From: Sedimentisphaerales bacterium
GTDB taxonomy: Bacteria > Planctomycetota > Phycisphaerae > Sedimentisphaerales > SM23-30
DNA length: 64,000 nucleotides
Reading direction: 5' to 3'
Assembly: GCA_028281535.1 (NCBI GenBank)
Contig: JANQJS010000059.1
Location: 1-64,000, forward strand
This document shows, piece by piece, positions 8,514 to 32,422 of the stretch (position 1 is the stretch's first letter; the number at the start of each line of letters is the position of its first letter). Under the pieces are notes generated by a model. That model was not told the origin of the DNA and did not search any database. It worked only from the letters and a program-made list of their open reading frames with translations. Made by a program: the position numbers and the translations under genes.

Positions 8514-8533
8514 GTCATAGTAGAGAGGTGATT

Positions 8534-8914
8534 ATGAAAAAACAGAAACCATCTGATCTTGAGTTACAAATTTTATCCCTGTTGTGGGACAAAGGGCCCT
8601 TGTCAGCTCGGGATATTCTAGAGTCAATGCCTGACGGTAAAAAACGAGCCTATACGACAATCCTATCCACGATGCAGGTCATGGAAAAGAAGGGGATTGT
8701 CTCCCATTCCACTCAGGGCGTTACCCATCTGTTTAAACCAGAAATTACAAAAAAGCAGGTATTGAAACCGTTTATTAAACGTGTGGTATCTGAATTTTTT
8801 TCCGGTAATCCCTCAGCCGTCATGGAGACGTTATTAGATGATGCTACCGTTGATCAGCAAGAGCTGCAGAAGATGAAACAGCTCTTAGATAAAAAATCTG
8901 AGAAAAACAGGTAA
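8534..8914 (+). CDS. BlaI/MecI-family transcriptional repressor
   Basis: 126 residues, the usual length for the family. The N-terminal winged helix shows the typical pattern: LELQILSLLWDKGPLSARDI, then TTILSTMQVMEKKGIV, then a wing ending THLFKP; the C-terminal third would dimerise. The ATG at 8534 has GAGAGG just upstream and is preferred over an in-frame GTG at 8528. It is followed after 8 bases by the M56 peptidase gene, the classic BlaI-BlaR1 arrangement. In that system the membrane peptidase triggers repressor cleavage; which signal or target genes matter here is not shown by the sequence. No beta-lactamase gene is nearby. Confidence 0.92.
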   Translation: MKKQKPSDLELQILSLLWDKGPLSARDILESMPDGKKRAYTTILSTMQVMEKKGIVSHSTQGVTHLFKPEITKKQVLKPFIKRVVSEFFSGNPSAVMETLLDDATVDQQELQKMKQLLDKKSEKNR

Positions 8915-8922
8915 ATTTTACA

Positions 8923-11900
8923 ATGGCAGTTTGGCATTCCATTTTAGAGCTTCTCATGGATGAGCATTTACTCTGGACATTAATCCATACCTTATGGCAG
9001 GGCGGGATCATTTCAATAGTACTGCTAATTTTATTGAGTCAGCTGTCTTCAGAAAAAACCACATTGAGATATTTATTAAATCAAGGTGCCATGTATTGTA
9101 TTGTTCTAGCAGCATTTTTCACTTGGAACATCCTTAATTATCAATCTTCGAATGCCCAGGATACTACCACAAATGAGGTTTCTTCTGCGGCGGTTGATTC
9201 AGATCCTTCGCCAAGTGAAAGCATGACTGTGAGTCCCTTAAATGATAACCTTATTATAGAACCACCTTCACAAAAGCAAGTAGATGATTATTCCTGGCAG
9301 AGCATCTGTATGATTGTGTGGTGTTTGGGTGTCTGTTTGATGTTACTTCGACTGGCATTTCGAATCCATGGTAGTCAAAAGTTGGTTCGACAATGTCAAC
9401 CACTGGACAATCCACAGATTTCAGAATTAATCGAGTCCATATGCCAGATATTGCAGATTCGTCGTAAAATCACTGTATTCGTTGGTTCACATATTCGCAT
9501 GCCGGGCGTGGTTGGGTTTGTGCGTCCAACGCTGCTATTGCCGGTTTCCATTTATAGTGGCATTCCCATCAAAGATATCGAGGCGATGCTGGCACATGAA
9601 TTGGCCCATATTAAACGCCATGATTACTTGCTGCATTTTGTGCAAATGCTCATAGAATCGCTGCTCTTTTTTAATCCTTGGGTTTGGTGGATTAGCCGTC
9701 AAATAAATTTTGAGCGTGAAGCCTGCTGTGATCAGATGGCTTCCAAAATTATAGGTCATAAGCAAACCTACGCTGAATCTCTCATTGCCTGGTATGAGCG
9801 AGCCTTAACGGGCGACAAATTGCCAGATAATATCGTTATGGCATTTTCAGGATCCAATAAAACTCATTCCATGCTCGAACGTGTTCAACGGCTTTTAACG
9901 CCCAAATATCAACCCATCTTGAAATTATCGTGGATGAAAACGGTTTCGATATTTTTGGTATCGTTTCTATTATTAACAGGTCTATACCAAGCCAGCCATG
10001 TGGCTGTAGCCGTAGCGGGTCGTTGGCTAACACCTCAAGAACGTGTTGCTCTTATAAAAGAAATCGGCAAGGAAGTTGGTGAACAGTATAGTCTTAATGA
10101 TTTGGATGATGATAGACAAGTAATATTTTCTGGAACAATTAATGCCAAATTTCCATCGGATATTCCAACAGAGCATTGTAATTGCGATATTAGTGTACGC
10201 GTAAGACGACATCATTCGAGTGGATCCTATGGCTATGGGGTCGAATATGGAGAGCCATTTAATATTCAATCACCAGCGGGTGTAACTAATTTGGTTGTTA
10301 AATGCGATGGTTTTTCTCCAAAAGTATTTGAGACAGTTTATACTGAGCCCAATGATGTGATAGATAATCTTGTCATTGAATTAGTCAAAGGAGATTCAGG
10401 GAAGATCTTGTTTCTAAATGAAGATGATCAATTTATTCCTAATGTTTCGATACTAGGTGGTTTTCAATTAATTCCAAATACGCTATCTCATACTATTGTT
10501 GAAAATAATATTAAGAATGGGCATGTTGATATTTTGGATGCCGTTGGAGAGACGCTCACGTTACATGTCCTTGCGCCAGGTTATGAACATGATATGCGTA
10601 AAAACATAAAATTAGAATTAGATAAGCCCTATGTCTGGTATTTGAAAAAGGCTGAACCGCTTGAGTTTCTTATCACAGATGAACATACCAGAAAACCTAT
10701 TGAAAATGCTCAGGTTCGGTTTGTTTCAGTTATGAATGAACCTGGAACCTGGATTGCGCCGCTAGAAAATGATCACGATTATGATAGCTCTTTTGGTATT
10801 ATGGCAACAACCGATCAATATGGGAAATGTAGGGTAGATTTCTTGAAGAAAGAGGATCGCTATAAGTTATTTGTCTGTGCCGAAGGATATGAATATAAAT
10901 TTCTTGAAGATGTGACGGTGTCAGATCGACAAAAAATGATTTCCCTGGGAATGCCTTTAGTGATAAAAGGTGTGATTGAAACGGATGAATCATATGAAGA
11001 TTTAGAATCAAAAGAAGTTCACTATACAAATGTACATTACAGCAATGAAAATCAATCAAATGTATCATCTGGCTCTAAAGTCAAACTTGAGAATAAAGAT
11101 GGAAAAATATCTTTTGCGATTAACGATCATCTTTGGGGCGAAAAAATCAATGTGAGATATGCTGGTCAGCGGCAGGTCGTATATCTTGATGATTCTGACT
11201 CGCATTGTGTTGTATTTGAACACAAAAAAAATAACCCATTAAAAACTCGAGAGGTCGTTTTTAAATTTGATATGTATGATGAAACGATAGATCCTGAAGG
11301 TTGGATTCGTATTGATTACATCACTCCTAAAATGAAAAAGAATCAACAAGGAATGGTTCCTAAATGGCTTTCCATAAAAAATGGGATGGCAAAAATTGAT
11401 TTACCCATACCTTGTTATCTACAGTATAGTATTGATTATTCTTATGGGAAAAAGCCAATAGGCTTTTGGTTTAATGACCTGGACTGGCAAGATAAAATCT
11501 TTGTTGATCAAAACGATGACCCTAAAGAAATCTATATAAAAACATATCCAGCGGGATCTATTTATGGCAGTATTCCTCGGCCAGATAATGATAACCAACA
11601 TAACCAGATTAGCTTGTCTTTAAAAACAATAGATAAACCTGTGCATTTGAGTGAACAGTCTGACTATCATTTTGATCAAAATAATATCGATGCCGTTTTG
11701 TCTAAAGAGTTGGATAAAGTAAAGTATCATTTCGGAGCCATTCCACTAGGTGGGCGATATGTGATCATTGCAAAGCAAGGGAAAATGTTTGTGACATCAG
11801 AACCAATTGTTTTGGATAAAGAATATTCGGTTCGACAAGTCGATTTTGTTTTTCCTGAACCCCAGACCTTGAAAGGAAGGGTTTATCTACCAGATGGGCT

Positions 11901-12426
11901 ACCCGCTTTTCAAGCAATGGTAAAAATTTCTGCAAATGTCAATGTTTATGGTGGACATTCTTATGGTATGCTACCTATTAAAACAGATCTTCAAGGGCGT
12001 TTCGTTATTGAGTCGGTGAATACTGATTTTCCTGGAGATTATACACTTGAGATTAAGCAGCCAGGCTATCAAGTGGTTCAGAAAAAAGTTAAGTCATTAG
12101 ATCAACCGGTTGAGATTCATTTAAAGAAAGGCCATGTCTTTACCGGGAAGATTCTCGATCATCATACTGATCGTCCAATTGTCGGGGTTCAAGTAACTGG
12201 TTATGATGATAAGTATCGTTGGGTTGAGTCCGATCATGTAACAAATCACAAGGGGGAATTTGTATTCTCAACTTTAGATGATAAAGAGTATCAAATTCAG
12301 TTTTCACAAGTAAGATCAATTCATTCTCATACTATGAAAATAAGTCCGGGCAACACATCCCCACAAATATTTTATGCTGTGATTCCTGATTGGGCGTATG
12401 GCGTGCGTTTAGGTGATAAAAATTAA
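8923..12426 (+). CDS. M56-family (BlaR1-like) membrane metallopeptidase with long outer extension
   Basis: 1167 residues, about twice the length of BlaR1. Residues 15-70 and 125-147 hold membrane segments; the zinc motif HELAH is at 225-229, followed by NPWVWW and EREACCD (264-270), all hallmarks of M56. A further hydrophobic segment near 340-360 leads to about 800 residues with no penicillin-binding domain. Instead the tail is made of beta-sandwich, carboxypeptidase-regulatory-like units, clearest at the C-terminus (GRVYLPDGLPAFQA, TDLQGRF, then VFTGKILDHHTDRPIVGV and NHKGEFVFST). Expected role: membrane sensor-protease that inactivates the repressor encoded just upstream. The outer part may sense or bind envelope material; that is inference. 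Confidence 0.9.
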   Translation: MAVWHSILELLMDEHLLWTLIHTLWQGGIISIVLLILLSQLSSEKTTLRYLLNQGAMYCIVLAAFFTWNILNYQSSNAQDTTTNEVSSAAVDSDPSPSESMTVSPLNDNLIIEPPSQKQVDDYSWQSICMIVWCLGVCLMLLRLAFRIHGSQKLVRQCQPLDNPQISELIESICQILQIRRKITVFVGSHIRMPGVVGFVRPTLLLPVSIYSGIPIKDIEAMLAHELAHIKRHDYLLHFVQMLIESLLFFNPWVWWISRQINFEREACCDQMASKIIGHKQTYAESLIAWYERALTGDKLPDNIVMAFSGSNKTHSMLERVQRLLTPKYQPILKLSWMKTVSIFLVSFLLLTGLYQASHVAVAVAGRWLTPQERVALIKEIGKEVGEQYSLNDLDDDRQVIFSGTINAKFPSDIPTEHCNCDISVRVRRHHSSGSYGYGVEYGEPFNIQSPAGVTNLVVKCDGFSPKVFETVYTEPNDVIDNLVIELVKGDSGKILFLNEDDQFIPNVSILGGFQLIPNTLSHTIVENNIKNGHVDILDAVGETLTLHVLAPGYEHDMRKNIKLELDKPYVWYLKKAEPLEFLITDEHTRKPIENAQVRFVSVMNEPGTWIAPLENDHDYDSSFGIMATTDQYGKCRVDFLKKEDRYKLFVCAEGYEYKFLEDVTVSDRQKMISLGMPLVIKGVIETDESYEDLESKEVHYTNVHYSNENQSNVSSGSKVKLENKDGKISFAINDHLWGEKINVRYAGQRQVVYLDDSDSHCVVFEHKKNNPLKTREVVFKFDMYDETIDPEGWIRIDYITPKMKKNQQGMVPKWLSIKNGMAKIDLPIPCYLQYSIDYSYGKKPIGFWFNDLDWQDKIFVDQNDDPKEIYIKTYPAGSIYGSIPRPDNDNQHNQISLSLKTIDKPVHLSEQSDYHFDQNNIDAVLSKELDKVKYHFGAIPLGGRYVIIAKQGKMFVTSEPIVLDKEYSVRQVDFVFPEPQTLKGRVYLPDGLPAFQAMVKISANVNVYGGHSYGMLPIKTDLQGRFVIESVNTDFPGDYTLEIKQPGYQVVQKKVKSLDQPVEIHLKKGHVFTGKILDHHTDRPIVGVQVTGYDDKYRWVESDHVTNHKGEFVFSTLDDKEYQIQFSQVRSIHSHTMKISPGNTSPQIFYAVIPDWAYGVRLGDKN

Positions 12427-28785: not shown

Positions 28786-28991
28786 AATTTCAGTCCTCAA
28801 ATTGCGTTGTTGGGCGTAAAAATAGCCTTTGAATTATGTTCCATGCCATTGATTGGCCAGATAAAATGTTTCTAAATGGTTGCCAGGGCCCTTACTGGCT
28901 TTCCGATACCGATTTACATCATTTAAGAATAAAGATAGCTGATCCGGTCGGTGACGTCAATATAGCAAATTATGGTCGTTTAATGTGTGGA

Positions 28992-29009
28992 ACTCCTGAT
29001 AACAGGAGT
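28992..29009 (+). promoter_or_regulatory. Hairpin just upstream of the sigma-factor SD
   Basis: ACTCCTG (28992-28998) and CAGGAGT (29003-29009) form a perfect 7-bp stem with loop ATAA, ending two bases before the true SD AAGGAG (29012-29017). The 5' arm ACTCCT is also complementary to that SD (AGGAG), so alternative pairing could hide the ribosome site. Confidence 0.5.
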
Positions 29010-29024
29010 ATAAGGAGATATTCT

Positions 29025-29603
29025 ATGAAAAAGCGTACAGAAAAATTTACAAGATTAGTCAAAGCGGCACAGGGAGGGTGTTGTTCATCGGTGGACGAGC
29101 TGGCGAGGGTCAGTTTAAAGCAGTTAGATCGGTATTTTTATCATAAAGGTTACTCGGCGAATCTACGTGATGATTTAGTACAAGAAACGGTGATGAATGC
29201 ATTTAAAAATTTAGGGCAGTTGGAAAATCCCGCTAGCTATTGGTCCTGGGTCTATCGCATTGCGGCCAATGTCAGACATAGCTATCATCGGCGGCAACAT
29301 ACAAGGCCTCAGGTGATTTTGTCAGATTTGCCAGATGGGATGCACTCAGAATTCGAGTCACATCAGATAAGCGGGGAGCATTTAGCTGTTGCCAGAGAAG
29401 ATAATCAAGGCGTTAAACAAATGATTGCTGGTTTGAAAGAAAATCAGCTGAAGATCATATCAAAGCATTTGATGGATACAATTGATTATGAGGCATTAAG
29501 CAAAGAGTTAGATTGTTCTCGAGGAGCTGCTCGAATGATGGTTCATCGTGCGAGAAAAAAATTGAAGGATATGTTTCTTAAAAAAGGTTTTACTGTTGCG
29601 TGA
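29025..29603 (+). CDS. ECF-type sigma-70 family RNA polymerase sigma factor
   Basis: 192 residues. The ATG at 29025 has AAGGAG 7 bases upstream; the frame is open 63 codons further but without family similarity or SD. Region 2 shows LRDDLVQETVMNAFKNL and SYWSWVYRIAANVRHSYHRR; region 4 shows LKENQLKIISKHLM then EALSKELDCSRGAARMMVHRARKKLK, the -35-binding HTH. It lies divergent to the CII-like regulator and upstream of another sigma factor (30092), from which it is separated by a terminator. No anti-sigma gene is adjacent. Its regulon is unknown. Confidence 0.9.
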   Translation: MKKRTEKFTRLVKAAQGGCCSSVDELARVSLKQLDRYFYHKGYSANLRDDLVQETVMNAFKNLGQLENPASYWSWVYRIAANVRHSYHRRQHTRPQVILSDLPDGMHSEFESHQISGEHLAVAREDNQGVKQMIAGLKENQLKIISKHLMDTIDYEALSKELDCSRGAARMMVHRARKKLKDMFLKKGFTVA

Positions 29604-30091: not shown

Positions 30092-31420
30092 GTGAAACAG
30101 CAAGATTATAGATCAAAAATCGCGCAAATCGTTAAGCAAATCCAAGCTGGGCAACATGACTCATTAGAGTATTTGATTCACTTGGTTCGAGATGATATGT
30201 GCAGTTATATATTTCGTTTGACACAGAATCGAGATATTACAGAAGATTTGGCTCAGGAAACTTTTTTGCAGATTCTTGAGTCAATCCATCAGATTAAGGA
30301 TCCGGATCGATTTCTTGCCTGGCTATATCGTACCGCTATGGGGAAGGTTCAGCATTATTATCGTGAGCAAAAACAAACGCAATCAATTCGTCAATCACAA
30401 CAGCAAAATGAACAAGAACTTTTAACGAAAATTGGAAAAATGAAAAACGAAGGTTTAAATAATTTATTACAAAAGGAATTGTACCGAACTGTTCGGGCGG
30501 CGTTATCAAAATTATCTTTTCGTCACCGTAATATATTAATCATGCGAGTTTATCAGCAGTTACCCTATGCGGTCATTGCAGAATCCATGAATTGTAGTCA
30601 GTTATCAGCGCAAGTTTTGTTTTATCGTGCCAAAAGTAATTTAAAGCGTCAGCTAAAAAAGCGTGGCGTTGGCCGCGATAAATTTATGACGGCATTAGGT
30701 CTTTTTGGTTTGGCCACACAGTATAGTGCTACTCAGGCTTCAGCAGGCGTTGTTTCTTGTGCTTTATTACAAACCAGTACTGCAGCAACGACATTGGGTT
30801 TTATTAGCACTACTTTGGTGAGCAGTTTTTCAGTCATTACTGCAGTTGTTACATCATTTGTGGGCGGCTTTTATTATGTTGAATCAATAGATCAAGTTCA
30901 AGCCGCATCAGGCATGCAACAACAAACACTCTATCGATATGAATCTCCTTCATATATATCTCATGCTGATTATCAAAGTGATGGGTGGAAAATCTTAAAT
31001 TTTTCAGGTGGGATAAATACATTTCAACCAGACAAAGACATTAAAAAATTTAACAAGCTGAGTACCACTTTGCCTATACCCGAAAATCAATCTATTGAGT
31101 TTGTGTATGACCAAGTAATAGAAGATGGGCCGGGCGGTGATATTTTAATTACAGATTATGCCCAGTTAGATGAAAGGGCAGATGTATTTGTAACCAATGG
31201 TCAGGGGAAAAAAGTGTTTCTTGGTTCTATTGATCATTCCATCGAGAGCGTGAAGCACTCAGTCGTTTCTATTGTTATTGGGCCTTGTACATATTTTGAT
31301 TTAAGTGATTATGATATTCCTTTTGAGCCTAAAGGTGTTTCTATCACTTGTACTTACCAAACTGATAATATCGGATTTAAAATACGTAAAATAAATGCCC
31401 GATTACATAATGACAATTAA
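30092..31420 (+). CDS. Sigma-70-like factor fused to a membrane segment and outer domain
   Basis: 442 residues from a GTG at 30092; the SD is weak. Region 2 (about 20-92) has RDITEDLAQETFLQILES and FLAWLYRTAMGKVQHYYRE; region 4 (about 130-188) has LSFRHRNILIMRVYQQLPYAVIAE then FYRAKSNLKRQLKKR. Residues about 198-262 are hydrophobic and Ala/Thr/Ser-rich, enough for one or two membrane passes. The last 170 residues form a beta-rich domain with ILNFSGGINTF, IEDGPGGDILI and LDERADVFVTNGQGKKVF, like a recurrent planctomycete surface module (DGxGxDL...EPAxVxVSxDG). Anchoring a sigma factor to the membrane could hold it until a signal releases it; this is inference. Confidence 0.85.
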   Translation: MKQQDYRSKIAQIVKQIQAGQHDSLEYLIHLVRDDMCSYIFRLTQNRDITEDLAQETFLQILESIHQIKDPDRFLAWLYRTAMGKVQHYYREQKQTQSIRQSQQQNEQELLTKIGKMKNEGLNNLLQKELYRTVRAALSKLSFRHRNILIMRVYQQLPYAVIAESMNCSQLSAQVLFYRAKSNLKRQLKKRGVGRDKFMTALGLFGLATQYSATQASAGVVSCALLQTSTAATTLGFISTTLVSSFSVITAVVTSFVGGFYYVESIDQVQAASGMQQQTLYRYESPSYISHADYQSDGWKILNFSGGINTFQPDKDIKKFNKLSTTLPIPENQSIEFVYDQVIEDGPGGDILITDYAQLDERADVFVTNGQGKKVFLGSIDHSIESVKHSVVSIVIGPCTYFDLSDYDIPFEPKGVSITCTYQTDNIGFKIRKINARLHNDN

Positions 31421-31672: not shown

Positions 31673-32422
31673 ATGAGTGGATTCAATGAGCGAAAGATGA
31701 GGGTGTTGGGTATGAAAGATTCTATACATAGAGGAAGTTCTCTTAAGATTGTAAGGTCTAGATATGATGGGTTTTTACTGTTACAAATGATGATAGCCAT
31801 CTTGCTTGGGATGATCATTTATTATTTTAGTTTTGTTCGTCCGAGTCAAAAAGAGATTGCTGACCAAATGGCATCGCCAGATACATACCCCTGGGTGCAA
31901 GAAGGGCGAATTGGAACCGGGCATCAGCACTATCTTCAAGATGAACAGTTGTTTCGAGAAACGATGATAGAGTTAAATTGTAAGGTGCTTGAGGAGTCTG
32001 CTAAGATAAATACTTCTCGTGGCAAAATGACGCTGTTTATTTCTCCGGATGGGCAGGTGTCTGGTGGATGGTCATCTTTAGGATATTACATGGATGATGG
32101 AAGTGAATACCAGGTGATGGGGGCTGAATTTTCCGGAAATACGGATCCAAGTAAAATCTATTCAGATACGAATGGTGAAGATCGGTCGTTACTTTATTTT
32201 ATAACCAAAGGGGAATTTCTTTTATTAAAAACCGACAGTAAAGGGCGTGTGAGTAGTCCCGCAGGAGAGATATTTGTAGTTGGTTGGTTACGAACTGATT
32301 CAACAGCTTTTGGACAAGTTCACTTAACACCTGATCGAGTTAAACAACATGTGTTTACCTGGAACGGTCGTCCTCCTATTAATTCTAAAAGTCTTAAGAT
32401 AGATCTTGGTCAGCTAAATTAA
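31673..32422 (+). CDS. Single-pass prepilin-like membrane protein, unknown
   Basis: 249 residues if the ATG at 31673 is used; ATGs at 31697 and 31712 are alternatives. A basic N-terminus (KIVRSRYDG) precedes the hydrophobic segment FLLLQMMIAILLGMIIYYF, arranged like a prepilin (cut after G33) except that the usual Glu at +5 is Gln. The outer part is not recognised; it has GKMTLFISPDGQVSGGW and TKGEFLLLKTDSKGRV. It lies after the fused sigma factor and its 3' end overlaps the convergent TfoX_C gene by 29 bases. Function unknown. Confidence 0.7.
   Translation: MSGFNERKMRVLGMKDSIHRGSSLKIVRSRYDGFLLLQMMIAILLGMIIYYFSFVRPSQKEIADQMASPDTYPWVQEGRIGTGHQHYLQDEQLFRETMIELNCKVLEESAKINTSRGKMTLFISPDGQVSGGWSSLGYYMDDGSEYQVMGAEFSGNTDPSKIYSDTNGEDRSLLYFITKGEFLLLKTDSKGRVSSPAGEIFVVGWLRTDSTAFGQVHLTPDRVKQHVFTWNGRPPINSKSLKIDLGQLN

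Follow-up and report, generated by a model that had tools for sequence, protein, structure and literature searches.

The window, by which we mean the whole 64,000-nucleotide stretch analysed, encodes a 442-residue protein in which sigma-70 regions 2 and 4 are followed by a long uncharged run and a C-terminal domain (Table 1). The two sigma regions, read as intact in a first-pass annotation of this DNA, are borne out by Pfam matches that both exceed the curated cut-offs, and the NCBIfam model TIGR02937 scores 75.5 bits against a cut-off of 42.9. Having regions 2 and 4 only, with a short linker between them, the protein is an ECF sigma factor. The sigma part is modelled by AlphaFold2 (AF2) at a pLDDT of about 95 within the full-length protein. 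Beyond the two sigma regions Pfam returns nothing credible, with no match after residue 195. The annotation had also described a system with no separate anti-sigma factor, and Pfam indeed finds no anti-sigma domain in the protein itself or in either of the two immediately flanking genes. A second ECF sigma factor is encoded 488 bases upstream on the same strand (28836-29603, +); this 255-residue ORF is without C-terminal extension, and its true start is probably an internal Met.

Table 1. Features of the anchored sigma factor gene and of the gene that follows it (positions within the window)
Feature	Position	Strand	Basis
Whole gene, predicted membrane-anchored ECF sigma factor	30092..31420	+	GTG start, 442 aa
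Sigma-70 region 2, residues 29-94	30176..30373	+	Pfam PF04542 (Sigma70_r2), E 1e-11
Sigma-70 region 4, residues 133-183	30488..30640	+	Pfam PF08281 (Sigma70_r4_2), E 1e-7
Conserved juxtamembrane motif, residues 192-209 (G192, F205-G206, T209; helix 195-208)	30665..30718	+	50-sequence alignment, AF2
66-residue run without D/E/K/R, residues 198-263	30683..30880	+	longest in 20,000 shuffles, 61
Predicted membrane-spanning helix, about residues 235-262	30794..30877	+	Kyte-Doolittle windows 1.5-1.85, AF2 helix, family-conserved position
Predicted extracytoplasmic beta-sandwich, about residues 281-442 (~160 aa)	30932..31417	+	relatives, exported homologues, model, fold matches
Next gene, single-span membrane protein	31673-32422	+	252 bases beyond sigma gene; no Pfam/NCBIfam match

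The uncharged run and the C-terminal domain

The hydrophobic stretch that the annotation had placed behind the sigma part holds up, both as the uncharged run of Table 1 and as a hydrophobic segment that reaches a Kyte-Doolittle (KD) window of at least 1.6 in 46 of 50 relatives. When the 442-residue protein was shuffled 20,000 times, the longest run free of Asp, Glu, Lys and Arg was 61 residues and the mean 21, compared with 66 observed. The hydrophobicity of the window protein is modest and, taken alone, within chance, as the best 19-residue KD window in residues 198-263 is 1.85, a value reached by 766 of 5,000 shuffles (15%). Because such a value is common in shuffles, it is the length of the uncharged run, together with the family, that carries the claim of a membrane segment. 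AF2 draws residues 230-255 as a single helix of low pLDDT. Over the 50 relatives, Lys and Arg stand at 386 versus 71 for Asp and Glu around the end of region 4, and at 81 versus 98 after the hydrophobic segment; this asymmetry is as expected for an N-terminus inside and a C-terminus outside. Membrane anchoring of the window protein is, on these sequence features, a well-supported prediction.

Between region 4 and the hydrophobic segment sits the juxtamembrane motif, in which G192 and T209 are invariant and L202, F205 and G206 are at least 90% conserved (50 sequences). Its helix is modelled by AF2 with a pLDDT of about 90. The motif is kept whatever follows it, including in relatives without an ectodomain, which suggests a role close to the sigma part.

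The surface-type domain, first estimated at about 170 residues, is better placed as the final stretch of about 160 residues; it is conserved in relatives and is predicted to form a beta-sandwich (pLDDT 79.8, pTM 0.77). Neither Pfam nor NCBIfam has a family for it. Compared with solved structures, the model comes closest to PAPP-A, CBM32, a pectin-binding module, SUN, and laminin/discoidin-like domains, all with modest TM-scores; the best CBM32 matches found by Foldseek have E-values of 8e-4 to 1.4e-3 and TM-scores of 0.48-0.63. The predicted fold therefore resembles the galactose-binding-like/CBM32 group (E about 1e-3), and by that measure the domain is sugar-binding-protein-like. A search with the C-terminal domain alone matched sigma factors as well as more distant, large exported proteins. 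At E<=0.001 the domain occurs in 22 of 298 genomes class-wide, with a single copy in the window's genome. The first-pass annotation had suggested looking for it on other sigma factors, and 11 further proteins of this kind were found, so that 12 sigma factors carry it, the window's included.

Carriers other than sigma factors include a protein of a related genome (L056) in which a clear signal peptide precedes the domain and Laminin_G_3 is also present; another (L061) that also has Laminin_G_3; and a 349-residue protein (L033) which, by reading of its sequence, has a signal-peptide-like start and a dockerin-like end. Homology to exported proteins (L056, L033) supports an extracytoplasmic location of the domain, and such carriers are the best sequence evidence that it would lie outside the cell. 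The proposed one-polypeptide design, with the sigma factor inside and the module outside, gains support from the exported homologues, the uncharged span and the charge asymmetry, while its reading as a signalling device is partly supported. Distant versions of the domain also occur in paired, neighbouring frames of 180-395 residues in four genomes (G024, G027, G030 and G057; L074, L076-L078, L088-L091), about 1.4 kb apart in each.

Family members and their downstream genes

Sigma-factor relatives are encoded in all 59 genomes of related species, with similarity that extends through the hydrophobic region in about half, and full-length relatives with an ectodomain are present in G007, G009 and G038. 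The scan for loci of relatives was based on a 9-sequence subset of the 50-sequence alignment. Across the phylum, a profile of the anchor module detects members in 2 of the 294 genomes sampled, namely the window's own, which has three, and one of the same order. In the samples of the phylum searched, the family is limited to the window's order. Relatives in named records come mostly from Phycisphaerae, Phycisphaerales, Sedimentisphaerales and other planctomycete MAGs, together with a few MAGs labelled otherwise. We found no literature on such proteins in this order; the main ECF classification papers lay outside the search, and a description there is possible.

About 50 relatives share the invariant juxtamembrane motif and the membrane segment, followed by one of several ectodomains or by none. 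In a tree of 69 relatives, the window-type C-terminal domain appears in at least three places, which needs at least three changes, and other branches carry a different ectodomain of ~380 residues or none. This scattered distribution implies that the anchor is kept while the outer module is exchanged. In the short relatives that lack an ectodomain, the chain finishes with one more segment of strong hydrophobicity (KD 2.3-2.8). Four longer ORFs (L142, L143, L148 and L149) were also counted as without ectodomain, their C-terminus being short. The ~380-residue ectodomain, found in relatives of 620-670 residues (L062:3636-5588, L123, L126), is without a Pfam match, and its last ~12 residues often form an 'LWL..LA.G.L' motif at the very C-terminus, a site that may matter for C-terminus-recognising proteases.

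Genes directly downstream of the relatives are enriched for exported products, export being called by means of a crude rule for signal peptides together with a prepilin motif, with the window's own neighbour excluded as a false positive. The p-values are only indicative, as the background ORFs were drawn from those same loci and from the window, and related sequences lack independence: 32 of 40 direct downstream genes are exported versus 38 of 146 other ORFs (p 1e-9), 10 of 40 versus 5 of 146 are prepilin-like (p 1e-4), and an exported partner accompanies 35 of 51 relatives with an ectodomain versus 2 of 15 without (Fisher p 2e-4). The link to an exported partner depends on the presence of an ectodomain. 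Four pilin-like partners are confirmed by TIGR02532 above its cut-off, two of these also by PF07963. Partner families are conserved in their protein bodies, with 54-59% identity among three and 38-58% among six others. A prepilin-like family with members at L050, L062, L098, L108, L115 and L128 (38-58% identity) lies directly downstream of anchored sigma factors across families of the order, and most members end in a shared 'GWF.P.DNS..DL' motif.

Of the 12 sigma factors with the window-type C-terminal domain, only four have a pilin-like partner, and the gene in the window is not among these. Next to that gene there is no downstream exported partner of the kind seen in G007 and G009, and a search of the window's genome for a homologue of their pilin partner gave only N-terminal prepilin similarity, with no body homologue. 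The gene that does follow (31673-32422) belongs to a family present in 24 of the 59 related genomes, where its neighbours vary. It was considered as a pilin-like partner and rejected, and it was removed from the partner counts because no prepilin match was obtained for it and its homologues are located apart from sigma genes.

Relation to known systems and possible mechanism

A sigma factor, a membrane segment and an outer domain in one chain is an already known design, and its description as 'little studied' in the first-pass annotation was overstated. In ECF52, exemplified by SCO4117 of Streptomyces coelicolor, an ECF sigma factor, a transmembrane region and an outer carbohydrate-binding-type domain form one protein; proteolytic release has been proposed, a zinc-finger anti-sigma domain and a proline-rich spacer are present, and the group is reported only from Actinobacteria (PMC5826349). 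The window protein would share this one-protein layout, its membrane segment being predicted and its outer domain galactose-binding-like by predicted fold. It lacks a match to the zinc finger (PF13490) at E<=1, residues 198-263 contain a single Cys, no His and no charged residue, and no proline-rich stretch follows residue 263. IutY of Pseudomonas putida, an ECF243 sigma/anti-sigma hybrid, has a cytoplasmic ECF sigma part, one membrane segment and an outer regulatory domain, and its activation through Prc and RseP, which release the sigma domain, has been demonstrated (PMC5411451). The outer part of IutY differs in being a cell-surface-signalling anti-sigma domain that works with the outer-membrane receptor IutA (PMC5411451); Pfam finds no FecR domain in the window's C-terminal domain, and no receptor of the IutA type is evident, by reading, among the neighbouring ORFs. 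Since it is without zinc finger, proline-rich spacer and FecR-type domain, the window protein is filed in neither group, though by analogy it probably works like both.

Other comparisons are more distant. In Clostridium thermocellum, an outer substrate-sensing module of the SigI/RsgI system controls the sigma factor, which the membrane protease RseP releases (PMC12203970, PMC4711584); there the sigma factor and the membrane sensor are separate proteins, whereas in the window protein they would form a single chain. Planctomycete ECF57 members, too, have long C-terminal extensions, with WD40-like repeats thought to bind proteins (PMC8999054), whereas the ectodomain here is without a Pfam family. 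No Pfam match at E<=1 to the extension types of ECF41, ECF42 or ECF57 (SnoaL-like, TPR, WD40) occurs in the window protein. The family is best described as distinct by its exchangeable outer modules and its conserved juxtamembrane motif, in one order of Planctomycetota in the samples searched.

The reading we prefer, at a probability of roughly 0.55, is that the sigma factor remains inactive while tethered and is released by proteolysis in response to a signal at the outer domain, as in P. putida IutY. Regions 2 and 4 would lie in the cytoplasm, the charge-poor stretch would cross the membrane and the last ~160 residues would lie outside, an arrangement with support in the sequence. The sigma part would be restrained by the membrane and perhaps also by the juxtamembrane helix. 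By analogy with IutY, an outside ligand, such as a glycan or envelope component, would be bound or lost, making the protein accessible first to a periplasmic protease and next to an intramembrane site-2 protease, so that the sigma part is freed for RNA polymerase. The process under control would, in many relatives, probably involve the exported product of the gene immediately downstream; in the window's genome no such partner adjoins the sigma gene. We infer release from the IutY precedent (PMC5411451), the ECF52 proposal (PMC5826349) and the M50 site-2 protease candidates encoded in the window's genome (one in a frame of 751 aa); since M50 proteases are near-universal, occurring in 14 of 14 control genomes, their presence is weak and non-specific evidence. 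The best structural matches of the full-length model include the compact, inhibitor-bound SigW-RsiW and CnrH-CnrY (target TM 0.84), versus a target TM of 0.34-0.42 for holoenzyme-bound ECF sigma factors among the matches listed. This compact conformation fits autoinhibition by the juxtamembrane helix and may be an AF2 default.

It is also conceivable, if rather improbable, that the sigma factor stays tethered and acts from the membrane, the outer domain altering its conformation, clustering or place without proteolysis and the membrane-bound holoenzyme reaching promoters. Conservation of the juxtamembrane motif even where the ectodomain is missing would suit such a mode of action, as would the recovery of several ECF sigma factors of another planctomycete in detergent-soluble fractions (PMC8567305), but IutY, the sole proven case of the architecture, requires release by RseP (PMC5411451). 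An unlikely arrangement is a wholly cytoplasmic protein: its hydrophobic stretch would pack against the sigma part, and its C-terminal domain would regulate by binding a ligand internally, much as SnoaL does in ECF41. The best-characterised ECF C-terminal extensions (ECF41, ECF42, CorE) are cytoplasmic (PMC8999054), shuffled sequences can attain the segment's modest KD value, and helix 195-208 is predicted beside region 4 with high confidence; against this stand the 66 uncharged residues, the export of the domain's homologues and the strongly hydrophobic final segment of the short relatives.

Least probable is an internal signal peptide, in which a short hydrophobic helix and an A-x-A-like motif would be cut by signal peptidase to separate the sigma factor from an exported domain. 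Many relatives do read like 'GLGKGSLLTALVLFGKMTAPSEAAAA' after the basic stretch (basic, hydrophobic, then small residues), and the window protein reads 'GRDKFMTALGLFGLATQYSATQASA' there. However, the hydrophobic core spans no more than about 9-12 residues, many relatives have a lysine within the motif, the second hydrophobic segment further on would be left without a role, and the motif is kept in short relatives that have no ectodomain to export.

A broader proposal for the whole family is tentative, with odds against it: these order-specific anchored sigma factors with exchangeable sensors could be self-contained circuits, each of which monitors and controls one surface protein through an operon-linked exported partner (type IV pilin-like or a large surface protein), with no dedicated anti-sigma factor and with inhibition residing in the juxtamembrane helix. 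Many planctomycete ECF sigma factors are without an assigned input, and the outer domain here is an assignable one. The juxtamembrane motif, which like the swapping of ectodomains and the association with genes of exported proteins goes beyond the first-pass annotation, offers a conserved handle on how the sigma factor might be kept inactive, and the exported gene just downstream is a candidate target or ligand in most family members. Relatives with and without the outer domain provide a natural test. Single-chain sigma signalling has been characterised in Pseudomonas and Streptomyces; the family would add a further phylum, with a seemingly different inhibitory element.

Elsewhere in the window (8528-12426, +), a BlaI/MecI-like repressor gene is followed by a large gene that, by reading of the sequence, possibly encodes a BlaR1/M56-type membrane protease; the pair may be another membrane-proteolysis circuit.
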